The translations under genes were made by a program, and so were the position numbers. Below the pieces are notes generated by a model. That model saw nothing but the letters and a program-made list of their open reading frames with translations. It was not told the origin of the DNA and made no database searches. Below are positions 1 through 7,551 of a DNA stretch of 64,000 nucleotides, piece after piece. Source of the stretch: an uncultured Pelagibacteraceae bacterium (GTDB lineage Bacteria > Pseudomonadota > Alphaproteobacteria > Pelagibacterales > Pelagibacteraceae); the NCBI GenBank assembly GCA_902589505.1, contig CACITE010000006.1, forward strand, positions 1 through 64,000, written 5' to 3'. Position 1 is the stretch's first letter. Every line of letters starts with the position of its first letter.

Positions 1-2114
1 GTAAAAAATTTACAGTCCTTATTTAAAACTATATTTCCTCCTTTTGATATGTTGTTAATTATTTCTGCTTTAGCTTTCGCTATATCTCCTAATGTTCGAA
101 AATTCTTTAGATGAGCAGCTGAAATATTAGTAATTACCGCTATGTCTGGTCTGACCATTTTGGATAAGTTGTCTATTTCACCTTTTTTATCCATGCCTAT
201 TTCAAATACCCCGTAATCAACGTTATTTCTTAAATTAGAAAGACTTAATGGCACTCCGTATTTATTATTATAAGAGTGTGGAGAATGATAAACTTTTCCA
301 TAACTTTTAAGTGAAAAACTAACTAGATTCTTCAGAGTAGTTTTTCCAACGCTTCCTGTAATTCCTATAATTTCAGCAGAGGTTAATTCTCGTGTAGTTC
401 TAGCCAAACTATTCAAAGAATTTAGAGTGTTTTTTACTTTTATGATACGGCTGTCTGAAAGTTTTCTTATCTTTTTACTTACAACTGTTTTTATAGCTCC
501 TTTTTTTATAGCTTCTTTTACAAATTTATGACCATCATTATTTTTACCTTTAACTGCAAAAAATAAATTATTTTTCTTTATTGTTTTTGTGTTAATCGAC
601 ACCCCATTATAATTTATATTTTCTAAATTATTTTTATGAAATGCCTGATTTAATGAAAAATTACGATAGTATTTTTTTTTGTTAATTGCTCTTTTTATTA
701 TTTTTTTATCAGAAAAATTAATAGTTTTATTACCAAAATTTTGAGTTGTTTCATGTCCTTTACCAGCAATCAAAAGTATTTCGTTTACTTTTAATTCATT
801 AATCGCAGTTTCAATCGCTTTTTTTCTATCTCCAATATCAACAGCTAATTTTTTACATCCTTTTATAATTGTTTTTCTTATTTTTTTGGGATCTTCATTT
901 CTGGGATTGTCATCGGTAACAAAAACTTTTCTACAGTACTTGTTGGCAATTTTTCCCATTTTAAATCTTTTTTTCTTATCTCTATCTCCGCCGCATCCAA
1001 AAACTATAATTATTTTCTTTTTAAATTGTTTTCTTAAAGCAATTAAACATTCCTGTAGGGCTTCTGGTGTGTGTGCAAAATCTACTATAATATTTGAATT
1101 ATTGTTTAAAGTAGCAACGCATTCGAGTCTACCATTGACTGGTTTAATTTTATGTATCTTATTAAAGATATTATTTAGATCAAGACCACATTCCTTAGCT
1201 GCTAGAATTGCCATTAACAAATTTTTAATTTGGAAATATCCTACTAAAGGAACATCAAGCTTGAAGATTTTTGATTTTATCGAAATTTTAATAATCTGTT
1301 TGTTATGTTTATATTTATTTTCTAGAATTATTATATCTCCAAACTTTCTGCCGATAGTTAATGTTTTTAATCTTTTTTTAATAGCTATTTTTTTTATAAT
1401 TTTAAATTCTAAATTATCTTGATCTGTAATTATTTTAGATTTTTTACTAAGCAAATATCTGAATAAATACATTTTTGCATTAAAATAAGATTTCATATTT
1501 TTGTGGTAATCAAGATGATCGTGACTTAGGTTTGTAAAAATTCCAGTATTAATATTTAAATTATCTAGTCGCTTTTGCTCCAAGCCATGGCTTGATGCTT
1601 CCAAAATTACATTATTAATTTTTCTTTTTGCTAAAATTTGCAAGCTTTTGTGTAATGACAGAGGGTCTATTGAAGTTAAATTTGTTTTTTTTTTATATTT
1701 TTTTGAAAAAATACCTAAAGTACCTACCGTCGCTGCTGACAAATTATTTAATTTTAATATTTGGTAGAAAAAATTAGCTACTGATGTTTTTCCATTTGTT
1801 CCGGTGACAGCAATTATATTTAATGGTTTTTTCTTATAAAAATTTGCACAAGCTTCAGATAGACTTTTTCTAACATTTTTAACAAAGATAATAGGTTGCT
1901 TGTGAATTTTATTTTTTATTTTTTTTTCAGCTACAATTACAGAAGCGCCTTTTGAAATTGCATGATTGATAAAATTTGTTCCTGATTTTTTTTTTCCTTT
2001 AATTGCAAAAAAAATATAGTTTTTTTTAATTTTTCTACTATCAAAACCAATCCCACGAATATATATCTTTTGGAATTCTTTGCTAACGGATTTCAACAAT
2101 TGACCTAATAACAT
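1..2114 (-). CDS. murE-murF: MurE-MurF fusion (UDP-MurNAc-tripeptide synthetase / tripeptide-D-Ala-D-Ala ligase), partial at window edge
   Basis: Read by hand on the minus strand from ATG at 2114: no stop in frame down to position 1. MurE motifs GTNGKTS, VTDDNPRNEDP and GKGHE, followed in the same frame by MurF-like FFAVKGKNNDGHKFVKEAIKKGA and P-loop TGSVGKTT. Absent from the ORF track, probably because it runs off the window. Confidence 0.9.
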   Translation of the reverse strand, partial: MLLGQLLKSVSKEFQKIYIRGIGFDSRKIKKNYIFFAIKGKKKSGTNFINHAISKGASVIVAEKKIKNKIHKQPIIFVKNVRKSLSEACANFYKKKPLNIIAVTGTNGKTSVANFFYQILKLNNLSAATVGTLGIFSKKYKKKTNLTSIDPLSLHKSLQILAKRKINNVILEASSHGLEQKRLDNLNINTGIFTNLSHDHLDYHKNMKSYFNAKMYLFRYLLSKKSKIITDQDNLEFKIIKKIAIKKRLKTLTIGRKFGDIIILENKYKHNKQIIKISIKSKIFKLDVPLVGYFQIKNLLMAILAAKECGLDLNNIFNKIHKIKPVNGRLECVATLNNNSNIIVDFAHTPEALQECLIALRKQFKKKIIIVFGCGGDRDKKKRFKMGKIANKYCRKVFVTDDNPRNEDPKKIRKTIIKGCKKLAVDIGDRKKAIETAINELKVNEILLIAGKGHETTQNFGNKTINFSDKKIIKRAINKKKYYRNFSLNQAFHKNNLENINYNGVSINTKTIKKNNLFFAVKGKNNDGHKFVKEAIKKGAIKTVVSKKIRKLSDSRIIKVKNTLNSLNSLARTTRELTSAEIIGITGSVGKTTLKNLVSFSLKSYGKVYHSPHSYNNKYGVPLSLSNLRNNVDYGVFEIGMDKKGEIDNLSKMVRPDIAVITNISAAHLKNFRTLGDIAKAKAEIINNISKGGNIVLNKDCKFF

Positions 2115-3830
2115 TTAAAATTTGGTAGAAGCTTCTAGGTTATTTATGGCTAAAATTGGACCAATTTTTTCTATAATTTTGCCTGCTACAACAACTGTAT
2201 TCCATCCTGAGGTATTTCTAGTTTCACCTTTGTATTTGTAACCACTAGGAAATTTTTCAGAAGGTGGAAATTCATAAACATAATTTGGTGAAGGCTGTGG
2301 CTCGTCCAACATTACCAGTAATACATATTTTGGCTTACTAGCTGGAAAGAGTGCAATAAATGTATTTAATTTTTCTTTAGAATTATATTTTAAAGCTGTT
2401 CCTGTTTTACCACCAACATCATAACCTTTAATATCAGCAAAGTTTGCAGTTCCCTCATCTAAACTAACAACTTTTCGTAAAATTGAATTAATTGTGCTGC
2501 TTGTCTTCTTAGAAATAATTTTTTCTTTTTTTTTAGCAAATTTAGTATTTGTTTTTAAAATTGATGGTTTTATTTTATAACCACCATTTCCTAAAATTGC
2601 ATATGCCTTAGCAAGTTGCAGAGGGGTAGTTGTTATACCATGTCCATAAGATGATGTGGCAAGTTTACACTTTCCCCATTTAAAATTAAGTGGAGTTCCT
2701 GTTTCTTCTAGATCAAAATTGATTTTGTTAAGAAGTTCTAAAGAGTTTAAAAAATTCTTATATTTTTCAATTCCCACTTTTTGAGCAATACGAACGGCAC
2801 CTATATTGGATGATCGAATTAAAATTTGTTCTGCGTTTAAATTTTTTGGCAACTTATCGTGTTCACTAATTGTATACTTGTCACAAGTCAAACTATTTTC
2901 TAAATTTTTAAATATTGTATTTGAGTTTATTATTTTATTTTCTAAAGCTACTGCAATGGTAAAAGTTTTAAATACTGATCCTAATTCATATACTCCCAAA
3001 GTAATTTTATTAGTATAAACTTCGTCACTAATTGTAACGCGTCTATTAAGATCATAGTCTGGTAGAGAAACTAAAGACAATATTTCTCCGTTTTCTACAT
3101 CCATCAAAACTGCACCGCTTCCTTTATTTTTAAAATCTGACTCGGCCTGTTTTAATTCTTTTCTAATCAAATGTTGTAAGTTTGAATCTAAAGTTAAAGA
3201 TAGAGGCAAATCAATTTTTTCTTTGTTGTTTAAACTTTCATTAAGAAATCGCTCTATTCCTGATATGCCCGTATTAACATCATCTGTTTGACCTAAAACA
3301 TGACTGAAAAGGCTTTTTTGAGGATAAATCCTTGAAGGTTTTGGTTCAAAATAAAAAGCTTTATTACCCATTAACCAAAATTTTTCCTTCATTTTCGGTG
3401 TTAGTCTTTTTCCAATATAAAAAAAATCTTCTTTATTTAATTTTTTTTTAATTTGATTAAGATCCAATTCAGGAAACTGAAGTCCTAATTTGATTATTAA
3501 ATTTTTTTTTTCTTTTTTTTTTAATAATTCTGGTCTTATTCCAACATCGTAAAGAATAACATTAGTAGCTAGCACTGCACCATTTCTATCAACTATATCT
3601 CTTCTGGTCTTCAAGTATTCGCTTTGTTTGCTTTGGCTATAAAAACTTTTTTCCGCTGATAAAGACAAATAAAATATTTTAATGCTAAAAATGACAATTA
3701 AACTAAAAAAAATAAAGGATAAAAAAGTAACTCTATTTAGTGAAATTTTAACTTTATTATGCTTATTTTTGTCAGTAAGCTCAGACTCTGTATAATCTTC
3801 AAAGTAGAAACTTTTTTTTTTGTATTTCAT
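2115..3830 (-). CDS. ftsI: Peptidoglycan D,D-transpeptidase FtsI (PBP3/PBP2-like)
   Basis: ORF 2115..3866; SVFK and KTGTA transpeptidase motifs; start at internal MKYKKKSF (3830) is more likely than 3866, which overlaps the upstream gene. Stop abuts the murE ATG. Confidence 0.93.
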   Translation of the reverse strand: MKYKKKSFYFEDYTESELTDKNKHNKVKISLNRVTFLSFIFFSLIVIFSIKIFYLSLSAEKSFYSQSKQSEYLKTRRDIVDRNGAVLATNVILYDVGIRPELLKKKEKKNLIIKLGLQFPELDLNQIKKKLNKEDFFYIGKRLTPKMKEKFWLMGNKAFYFEPKPSRIYPQKSLFSHVLGQTDDVNTGISGIERFLNESLNNKEKIDLPLSLTLDSNLQHLIRKELKQAESDFKNKGSGAVLMDVENGEILSLVSLPDYDLNRRVTISDEVYTNKITLGVYELGSVFKTFTIAVALENKIINSNTIFKNLENSLTCDKYTISEHDKLPKNLNAEQILIRSSNIGAVRIAQKVGIEKYKNFLNSLELLNKINFDLEETGTPLNFKWGKCKLATSSYGHGITTTPLQLAKAYAILGNGGYKIKPSILKTNTKFAKKKEKIISKKTSSTINSILRKVVSLDEGTANFADIKGYDVGGKTGTALKYNSKEKLNTFIALFPASKPKYVLLVMLDEPQPSPNYVYEFPPSEKFPSGYKYKGETRNTSGWNTVVVAGKIIEKIGPILAINNLEASTKF

Positions 3831-3837
3831 TAAAAAA

Positions 3838-4554
3838 TTATTTTCCAGGTATAACAGGCATGCCAAAAAAAACTTTTGCTACTTGCACAGCGGTCCATCT
3901 ACCTATTCTTTCCAATGTGAGTGTGTCTTTAGGAGAATTGTAGATATTTTTTAATTCTTCTTTTTTTTGTTCTATTTTGTTTATAACTTCTTTTTTTATT
4001 TCACCCGGAATAGCTTTTGGCTCAGAATATAGAGCTTGAAGACGTTCTATCTCATCCCGTTTTTTTTGAATACGTGAAATAGTCTCTAGTTTTACAGATT
4101 TTAATAATTTTTTCTTGTTGGTTTTTATATTTTCTAATTTATTACTTCTATTTAAACTTTGATTTTCTTTATTTAAGTGCTCAATTTGTGATTTCTGATA
4201 TGTAGCAAAGTTATTATCTAAATATTCTTTTGCCAATAGCGATATGTTTTCTGGAGATGTAAGCACTTCATGATCTAAAATTTCTTGATCTAAATTAAAT
4301 TTAACTACATTAATTGATGCTTTTAAATTATTAATTTCTTTTTCTAAATTTCTTGTTTCATTTTTTATTACTGATACTAAAAATAAACCGCACACAAATA
4401 GAATTGTCATTAAAGAATATTTTTTTACAGAATTTTTTGCTTTTATATTAGGTATAGCATTTTTCCATTTGTCTTGATTAATTCGATCATTTGTAATTCC
4501 CGTTTCTATTTTATTTATTGGTAAAGAATTAACCCATTTGTCTTGATTTATCAT
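3838..4554 (-). CDS. Candidate FtsL-like division protein (one TM + coiled coil), unusually long
   Basis: Lies between rsmH and ftsI, the FtsL position; single hydrophobic segment (SLMTILFVCGLFLVSVI) followed by a long coiled coil. No sequence-level FtsL match could be verified. Confidence 0.6.
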   Translation of the reverse strand: MINQDKWVNSLPINKIETGITNDRINQDKWKNAIPNIKAKNSVKKYSLMTILFVCGLFLVSVIKNETRNLEKEINNLKASINVVKFNLDQEILDHEVLTSPENISLLAKEYLDNNFATYQKSQIEHLNKENQSLNRSNKLENIKTNKKKLLKSVKLETISRIQKKRDEIERLQALYSEPKAIPGEIKKEVINKIEQKKEELKNIYNSPKDTLTLERIGRWTAVQVAKVFFGMPVIPGK

Positions 4555-5562
4555 ATTTGAGTTCCTTCAAGACGAAAATAGTTTATAAATTTATTTTTGA
4601 ATTCATCAGGATTTAAAAAATCATTATTATTTCTCACCGCATATCTGAGTTTCGCAGAGCGTGAACGAATATTTTTTTCTATTTCATTTAAATCAGCAAC
4701 TAGTGGTTTTTTAGATACTGATTTGAACAAACTAAAATTTTTCTCAGGAGGCAGATATCTTGACGGATTTTTTTTTAATTTTGAATATAAATTAAAAAAA
4801 TTTTTAACTATTTTATCTTCCAAAGAATGAAAACTTAAAACAACTAATATTCCCCCATTTGAAAGAAGTTTGGTAGCTTTGATTAACCCCGTTATTAATT
4901 CTGTTAATTCTTGATTAACCAGTATTCGTATTGCTTGAAATGTTTTTGTTGCTGGATTTTTTTTATGATTTTTGTTTTTCTTTTTTGCACTATTAATTAT
5001 AGAAGCAAGTTCTTTTGAAGTTTTTATTGGATTAATTATTCGATGTTTATCAATTTTATTCGCAATAATTTTTCCATCTTTTTCTTCTCCAAAAACTTTT
5101 ATTATTGTAGACAAATGTTCTTTTTCAAAATTATTAATAACATCGTATGCCGAGAACTTATTTATTCCCATCTCCATATTCAAAAGACCTTTTGAATTAA
5201 AAGAAAAGCCTCTTTCTTCGTCAGATAATTGAAAAGATGAAAGACCTAGATCAAATATTATAGCTTTGGGTTTAAAACTTTTTTTTAACCACTTGATTTA
5301 AATTGCTAAATTTCTCTTGATAAAAATTGAATCTCTTTGGAAATTTTTTTTCTAAAAGATTTGCATATTTTTTTGTTAATTTATCTCTATCGAAAGCTAA
5401 AACCCTAGTGTCAGGAAATTTTAATATTGCTTCGGAGTAGCCGCCGCCTCCAAAAGTGCAGTCAATAAAAGTGCCACCATGTTGAGGGGATATAATGCTT
5501 AATACTTGATTGAGCATCACTGGATAATGTTTTGTATTTTCCAATGACATGGTGGCATTCAT
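4551..5562 (-). CDS. rsmH: 16S rRNA (cytosine1402-N4)-methyltransferase RsmH, interrupted by one apparent frameshift near 5274-5288
   Basis: Track ORFs 5272..5700 (HYPVMLNQVL...FIDCTFGGGGYSEAIL) and 4551..5183 (FHSLEDKIVK) are the two halves; removing one A from the A8 tract restores ...KKSFKPKAIIFDLGLSSFQLSDEERGFSF.... Confidence 0.88.
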
Positions 5563-5584
5563 AAATTTCTCTTCTATCTTGCAT

Positions 5585-7090
5585 TTAATTTTTTTGTCTT
5601 CGTAAAAAAGCTGGTATTTCAAAATCTTCCTCCAAGTTAGACTCATCAAACATTTCGGGTTCTTTTGTTTCATCTTCTTTTTCGGAATTTGAATTTTCAA
5701 ATATCTTCAAATCTTTCTCACTATTATCTTCATTATTGAATAAATTATTTTCTAAATCATTTGAAAACAATTCTGGAGATGCCAATTCAATGCTATCCAC
5801 TTCAAAACTTGGAGTATTAGAATCCTGTCTTAAATCTTCAGATTCATTCTCTAAATTTTGAAGATAGGCTGCATTTTCTATTGAAATATTTCCTATAGGA
5901 GCCTCATCTAAAACTTCTTCTTTATTACTTTGAGCAGTTTGTTGATGTTGAACATTGACTTTTTCTTCTTCAATAGCTTTGCTTAAATCTAAAGCAGTGG
6001 CTCCTTCTGTTGCATTTAAAGTTGGTTGATTCATTGCTACTGTATTAATCGAATGATCTGAATAACCAACATTCCTATTTTGTAGTCTGTGAACCATGCT
6101 TATAACTGGTTTTGATTGTGGAGATTGATTGTCTAATGAAGTTGCAACAATAGATACGCGAATTTTTCCAGTTAAAGTCTCATCTTCTATAGAACCAAAT
6201 ATTAATTCTGCCTCAGGATCTACTTCTGCTCTAATTTTATTTGTAACTTCGTCTACCTCAAACATAGTAAGATCATTACCACCAGTAATATTCACTAAAA
6301 GTCCTTTTGCACCTTTTAAAGAATATTCATCTATTAAAGGATTATTAAGTGCAGCATTTGTAGCTTCTTGAGCTCTCTTTTCTCCTTCAGCTTCACCTGT
6401 TCCCATCATTGCTTTGCCCATACCTTTCATGATTGTTTCGACATCAGCAAAATCCAAATTTACCAAACCAGGTCTTACCATCAAATCTGTAACGCTTTGA
6501 ACGCCAGATTTTAAAACATCATTCGATAAACCAAAAGAATCTTTGAAGGTTGTTTTCTCGTTAATAATTTTAAATAAGTTTTGATTTGGAACAACAATAT
6601 TTGTATCTAAATGTTTTTTTAATTCTTCTAATCCTTGAAGAGCAATTCTCATTTTTTTTGGCCCTTCATAAGAAAAGGGAAGTGTCACAACACCAACTGT
6701 AAGTATATTTAATTCTTTTGCTGCTCTAGCAATCACGTGTGCAGCGCCAGTCCCTGTGCCTCCCCCCATGCCAGCAGTTATAAAAACCATATTGCTTCCT
6801 TTAATATAATCGACAATATCGTTTAGAGATTCTTCTGCTGCCGCCTGGCCAATTTCATGTTTCGCACCAGCACCTAAACCTTTTGTTAAATTTGTTCCCA
6901 GTTGAATCTTGGCTTCGGCTTTGTTGTTTTTTAAATCTTGAGCATCGGTATTTATTGCTACAAATTCTACTCCTTGCATCCCTGCTTCAATCATACCGTT
7001 AAGAGCGTTTCCTCCAGCTCCTCCAACTCCTAGGACTAAAATTCTTGGTTTTAATTCTCTTAATTCTGGACCTTTAATATTAATTGTCAT
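5585..7090 (-). CDS. ftsZ: Cell division protein FtsZ
   Basis: GGGTGTG tubulin signature (ITAGMGGGTGTGAA); C-terminal conserved peptide DFEIPAFLRRQ. Confidence 0.98.
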   Translation of the reverse strand: MTINIKGPELRELKPRILVLGVGGAGGNALNGMIEAGMQGVEFVAINTDAQDLKNNKAEAKIQLGTNLTKGLGAGAKHEIGQAAAEESLNDIVDYIKGSNMVFITAGMGGGTGTGAAHVIARAAKELNILTVGVVTLPFSYEGPKKMRIALQGLEELKKHLDTNIVVPNQNLFKIINEKTTFKDSFGLSNDVLKSGVQSVTDLMVRPGLVNLDFADVETIMKGMGKAMMGTGEAEGEKRAQEATNAALNNPLIDEYSLKGAKGLLVNITGGNDLTMFEVDEVTNKIRAEVDPEAELIFGSIEDETLTGKIRVSIVATSLDNQSPQSKPVISMVHRLQNRNVGYSDHSINTVAMNQPTLNATEGATALDLSKAIEEEKVNVQHQQTAQSNKEEVLDEAPIGNISIENAAYLQNLENESEDLRQDSNTPSFEVDSIELASPELFSNDLENNLFNNEDNSEKDLKIFENSNSEKEDETKEPEMFDESNLEEDFEIPAFLRRQKN

Positions 7091-7551
7091 TTCCCCTCCT
7101 TTTTAAATTGATTTTCCCATTTAAGACTTGCTCTATTCAAATTGGCTTTTTTTCTAGCCTGTATTTTGAATTTTTCAAAAAGTTTAGGTTCCCAAATTTG
7201 AAAAGTTGATCCTTGACCTACAAAAAGCATTACTTGTTTAATTTTTGCATGGTTTAATAATTTGTCTGGTATAGAAATTCTACCTTCGCTATCAAACTGA
7301 AGATTAACACTTTCAGCTAAGACTGAAGTTGCAAAAATATCTCTCTTTTCTTCAAATGGATTTAACGAATCTATAGATTCAGAAAGTTTTTCTATTCTAT
7401 TTTGTGGACATCCCTCAATAGCAAAATTGTTAAAAGATGGATAACAAACAACACCATTATAACCCATGCTACTCAAGTGAGATCTAAAACTGGCTGGCAC
7501 TGACACCCTCCACTTTTTGTCTAATTTGTTTTCGTACGTAGATAAAAACAT
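7087..7551 (-). CDS. mraZ: Transcriptional regulator MraZ
   Basis: MFLSTYENKLDKKWRVSVPASFR typical MraZ N-terminus; second SpoVT/AbrB-like repeat; 4-nt overlap with ftsZ. Confidence 0.96.
   Translation of the reverse strand: MFLSTYENKLDKKWRVSVPASFRSHLSSMGYNGVVCYPSFNNFAIEGCPQNRIEKLSESIDSLNPFEEKRDIFATSVLAESVNLQFDSEGRISIPDKLLNHAKIKQVMLFVGQGSTFQIWEPKLFEKFKIQARKKANLNRASLKWENQFKKEGK

Follow-up and report, generated by a model that had tools for sequence, protein, structure and literature searches.

A murE–murF fusion gene in the division-and-cell-wall cluster of SAR11 bacteria

The window (the 64,000-nucleotide stretch of DNA analyzed here) begins with a single open minus-strand frame (3–2114) which, in agreement with the initial annotation, runs without a stop from the ATG at 2114 to base 3, i.e. 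over 704 codons, and which contains, in this order, a full MurE (about residues 1–480), a short join and the N-terminal half of MurF. The MurE part (684–2114, minus strand, residues 1–477), a UDP-MurNAc-L-Ala-D-Glu:meso-DAP ligase, is identified by profile scores and by three motifs read in the translation, the P-loop GTNGKT, DNPR and GKGHE, all invariant or nearly so in an alignment of 15 relatives; in the MurE family, DNPR goes with the meso-diaminopimelate substrate. It is followed by the junction (641–683, minus strand, about residues 478–491), which includes a run of nine A and coincides, in the structural model of a relative, with a low-confidence segment flanked by two helices, and by the MurF part (3–640, minus strand, residues 492–704), which comprises the N-terminal domain and the start of the central domain and is recognized by its TIGR01143 score and the P-loop TGSVGKTT. 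The upstream neighbor in the dcw (division-and-cell-wall) cluster, at 2115–3866 on the minus strand, is ftsI (penicillin-binding protein), as judged from the gene neighborhood.

Against the NCBIfam models, the window protein scores 528 with TIGR01085 (MurE; curated cut-off 257.3), 602 bits with NF001124 (cut-off 476) and, despite being incomplete, 336 bits with TIGR01143 (MurF; cut-off 288.6), a complete relative reaching 469 with the latter. Over its full length it is best matched by NF008896, a model for bifunctional MurE/MurF that aligns in one stretch with residues 19–701. The Pfam-type domains are Mur_ligase (N), Mur_ligase_M and Mur_ligase_C for MurE, followed by a second Mur_ligase and Mur_ligase_M; thus, of the two complete domain sets initially expected, the MurE set is complete, while only the first two MurF domains lie in the window. 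The MurE–MurF fusion in the window is real, and the initial annotation was right to liken it to the fusion known from Bordetella (PMC6420597).

Base 1 of contig C6 is also the first base of the window, and the assembly holds no sequence to its left, which is why the frame has no stop within the window; as the gene is cut by the contig end, only about 45% of MurF lies there. The stop, which the initial annotation had proposed to seek further left, could therefore not be reached on C6, but it was found on another contig, C12. When the complete 949-aa relative P0002 (locus L006) was used to search this genome, the rest of MurF was retrieved at G000:C12:25779–26327 on the minus strand, which is the orientation expected: 182 aa with their own stop, running off the right contig end, corresponding to residues 768–948 of P0002 and carrying the MurF motifs YNANP, LGDMLELG and KGSNATG. 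MurF in this genome is thus distributed between an N-terminal part in the window and a C-terminal part on C12, with about 57 residues (roughly 170 bp), by comparison with P0002, in the unassembled gap. Beyond the end of murF, C12 continues with mraY-murD-ftsW-murG-murC-murB-ddl-ftsQ-ftsA-lpxC (gene names from reading the translations), and in the single-contig genome G003 a fused gene of 947 aa without any break sits in the same gene order, from murB to mraZ. Because the gene order of relatives matches, we infer that C6 and C12 adjoin, and the murEF gene most likely spans the gap between them.

The join itself, at about 683–641, retains the N-terminal helix of MurF, so that almost no linker has been added. 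Hence, the passage of MurE into MurF noted initially stands, but hardly any of the short linker assigned to it is an addition. From GKGHE to the MurF P-loop, the window protein has 135 residues and fused relatives have 126–142, and the summed tails of the split genes found in the SAR11 order amount to about 125–140 residues over the same span (by two counts whose definitions differ by one residue). The similarity of the two ranges indicates that the end-to-end fusion adds no linker. An in-frame ATG occurs within the junction in only 10 out of 93 joined proteins, so that a separate MurF has no conserved internal start.

The A9 run lies inside the junction, at 680–672, where an indel introduced by sequencing or assembly might make two separate genes look like one. 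That single-base errors may be present in this assembly is suggested by a conserved gene nearby, rsmH (mraW; window 5183–5700, minus strand), which is split into two frames by a break at or near a run of eight A and is whole (336 aa) in G003, the break being either a base error in the assembly or a real frameshift. However, the frame reads through at the same place in dozens of independently sequenced single-cell genomes and in several single-contig genomes, with the same spacing in relatives and no conserved internal start codon. Since all close relatives read through in frame, an indel is extremely unlikely to be the origin of the fusion. The gene order at the head of the dcw cluster was also noted: ftsZ lies between mraZ and rsmH (window 4551–7551, minus strand) and not at the end after ftsA, which on C12 is followed by lpxC. 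This succession, mraZ-ftsZ-rsmH-ftsI, recurs in six further stretches from Pelagibacterales, the sister family included.

We surveyed 147 genomes of the family, 197 of the order, 386 of the class and 259 of the phylum. The genome is a member of the Pelagibacteraceae (SAR11), the closest named relatives being uncultured bacteria of this family, and a single stop-free frame of 920–958 aa (a few are longer) is found in genera g1–g4, g6, g8, g10, g11 and g13. At the level of DNA, 109 loci were read; they encode 93 distinct proteins in which MurE and MurF share a frame, and 85 of these proteins have at least 900 aa. The only three loci without such a shared frame are cut by contig ends. A clean MurE/MurF split was sought within the fused clade and none was found. 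Candidate fissions in eight genomes (G056, G102, G110, G006, G107, G287, G034 and G142) were ruled out, as they all proved to be contig ends or frameshifts; the frame breaks seen within the fused gene in a few genomes of this clade, e.g. G056 and G034, are most simply explained by assembly errors. Five genomes of genus g3 rated 91–94% complete (G216, G220, G227, G231 and G266) gave zero MurE–MurF matches, with assembly gaps as the likely cause.

Two separate genes are present in genera g5, g7, g9 and g12, and in the sampled genera of the sister family. The split SAR11 sister clade includes, in g5, the LD12 isolate LSUCC0530 (PMC6018831); the other split genera may belong to SAR11 subclade IIIa. 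In the survey of relatives suggested in the initial annotation, the close relatives are all fused, and split genes are confined to the sister clade and the sister family, so that the relatives do not all have separate genes with the same junction sequence. The separate genes touch or overlap in several ways: by an ATGA overlap in g7, g9, G023 and f2 g15, by a TAA followed directly or 1–3 bases on by the MurF start in g12, g5 and f2 g16, and by a longer murE/murF overlap in two f2 g17 genomes. In some split relatives (g12, G019 and f2 g16), MurF even lies in the frame of MurE past a single TAA.

Several kinds of frames required direct inspection. Frames with one internal stop (e.g. G012, G160, G574 and G538), which looked fused in the survey, turned out by direct ORF reading to be separate same-frame neighbors. 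Open frames of 1,750–2,100 aa in other genomes were rejected as fusions: most of those inspected directly contain a MurE frame of about 500 aa, and in the cases in which about 1,000 aa run into MurE (loci L165, L191, L197 and L198), the upstream half looks, by eye, like an arginine-rich out-of-phase frame and not like FtsI. In one g12 single-contig genome (L131, G040:C1:667400–671600), murF itself is in two frames (265 and 195 aa), downstream of a separate murE.

A tree was built from 62 MurE+MurF rows, from which the junction columns were left out and which contain no Bordetella row, and the history of the fused and split states was derived by parsimony on the outgroup-rooted tree. The fused SAR11 rows form one clade (SH-aLRT 99; bootstrap/SH-aLRT 100/99 in a second tree), whose sister is the split clade of g5, g7, g9 and g12 (97 in the first tree, 95/95 in the second), and the split sister family falls outside both. 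The state changes once within the order and four times when other Alphaproteobacteria are included, the SAR11 change being one of the four. Because the outgroups are mostly split and the fused rows are a single clade nested among split ones, the simplest reading of the sequences is one ancestral fusion in SAR11, with separate fusions elsewhere. The same-frame MurF found after one TAA in g12, G019 and f2 g16 is also what a broken fusion would look like, and one could thus imagine that the fused state was ancestral to the whole order and that the gene was later split both in the sister family and in the clade containing LD12. Such a history would replace one fusion by two or more fissions, and separate genes are found in the sister family and in most outgroups, in many cases with an out-of-frame ATGA overlap; we therefore regard it as very unlikely and retain a single fusion within the family.

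Outside the order, fusions were confirmed directly in families f70, f86, f68, f101, f38 and f49 of the 386-genome class sample. These are likewise single frames, of about 800–1037 aa, containing both enzymes but, unlike the single SAR11 clade, they are scattered on the tree among split genes. A MurE–MurF fusion has also been reported in Pseudovibrio (PMC6420597). In the 259-genome phylum sample, G466 and the window are, among the matches listed, the sole stop-free matches covering both enzymes. Three 0.9-Mb genomes of family f67 in the class sample (G354, G465 and G627), rated 99–100% complete, have zero MurE/MurF matches; f67 is possibly a wall-less or wall-reduced alphaproteobacterial lineage.

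The characterized counterpart of this protein is the Bordetella pertussis MurE–MurF fusion, which binds MurG (PMC6420597). The best PDB match, by both sequence and fold, is 8F5D (‘Architecture of the MurE-MurF ligase bacterial cell wall biosynthesis complex’), ahead of single MurE and MurF structures in the fold search. As in SAR11, the same two enzymes are joined in the same order in one polypeptide of about 945 aa, although the identity between a SAR11 relative and 8F5D is about 26% in the fold alignment. The two also differ in the join: about 20 linker residues are described for B. pertussis, while in SAR11 nothing is added to what the tails of the separate enzymes already provide. Since the fused SAR11 genes group with split SAR11 genes, the SAR11 and Bordetella fusions are probably of separate origin. 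The NF008896 (PRK11929.1) model matches the 949-aa relative end to end (residues 5–942 on model positions 17–957), but the scores, 859 bits for this complete relative and 907 for G003, are below the curated cut-off of 1023 bits; by the curators’ rule, the SAR11 fusion therefore falls outside this equivalog.

The structure predicted for a 949-aa relative (L035) from a 15-sequence alignment (mean pLDDT 87.5, pTM 0.70) displays two Mur ligase folds with a short low-confidence stretch between them, the pLDDT dipping to 59 at residues 481–490, where the final helix of MurE gives way to the first of MurF. Superposition of the whole chain on 8F5D is poor (rmsd 24.9), and the model is therefore unreliable as to how its two halves are positioned relative to each other. 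A search of the accessible literature for a SAR11 MurE–MurF fusion found none, although a mention is possible in a 2023 PNAS paper on MurE–MurF, which reportedly deals with its architecture and genomic arrangement.

We propose that the SAR11 dcw cluster contains a single murEF gene, of which the window frame is the 5′ three quarters. Its product would be a cytoplasmic ligase of about 943 aa with two activities: the MurE half would add meso-diaminopimelate to UDP-MurNAc-L-Ala-D-Glu, and the MurF half would carry out the next step, the addition of D-Ala-D-Ala. The end-to-end joining of the neighboring genes, already touching or overlapping, would have occurred once, in the common ancestor of the fused Pelagibacteraceae, and the fusion would have been passed on vertically since. 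At the level of sequence, the frame, both motif-bearing domain sets, the C12 fragment, the conservation, the single clade and the lack of added linker are all in place, and we consider it very likely that murEF is a single bifunctional gene with this origin and vertical inheritance. Both halves are presumably active and the protein uncleaved.

What the fusion is for is a separate matter. The modest reading is a bifunctional enzyme with 1:1 stoichiometry; the fixed stoichiometry suggested initially indeed follows trivially from there being one polypeptide. Channeling, also put forward at that stage, would pass the UDP-MurNAc-tripeptide on from the active site of MurE to that of MurF; in its favor, the two enzymes catalyze consecutive steps and have been fused repeatedly (PMC6420597 and this survey). 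Yet it gains no support here: in the B. pertussis fusion, an elongated and flexible molecule, the active sites are about 35 Å apart (PMC6420597), related SAR11 bacteria manage without a fusion, their split genes already touch, which would in itself couple translation, and the short low-confidence join in the model gives no sign of a rigid tunnel. Channeling as the purpose of the fusion thus appears very improbable, and the benefit, if any, would be equal dosage or compactness. The retention of the fusion across the fused clade, without any loss seen, might instead reflect selection for a function beyond that of two coupled genes, e.g. an intramolecular handover of the tripeptide at very low enzyme copy numbers, but we consider this very improbable.

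MurE–MurF fusions were already known from Bordetella, Pseudovibrio and others (PMC6420597), together with a solved structure, and our results leave existing knowledge of MurE, MurF or their fusions unchanged. What they add is that most of the SAR11 family, whose members are very abundant marine bacteria, appears to have carried the fusion for a long time and to have inherited it vertically. Moreover, since fused genes (in the clade of the window) and separate genes (in the LD12-containing clade) both occur within SAR11, the group would offer a natural comparison for finding out what such fusions are used for.
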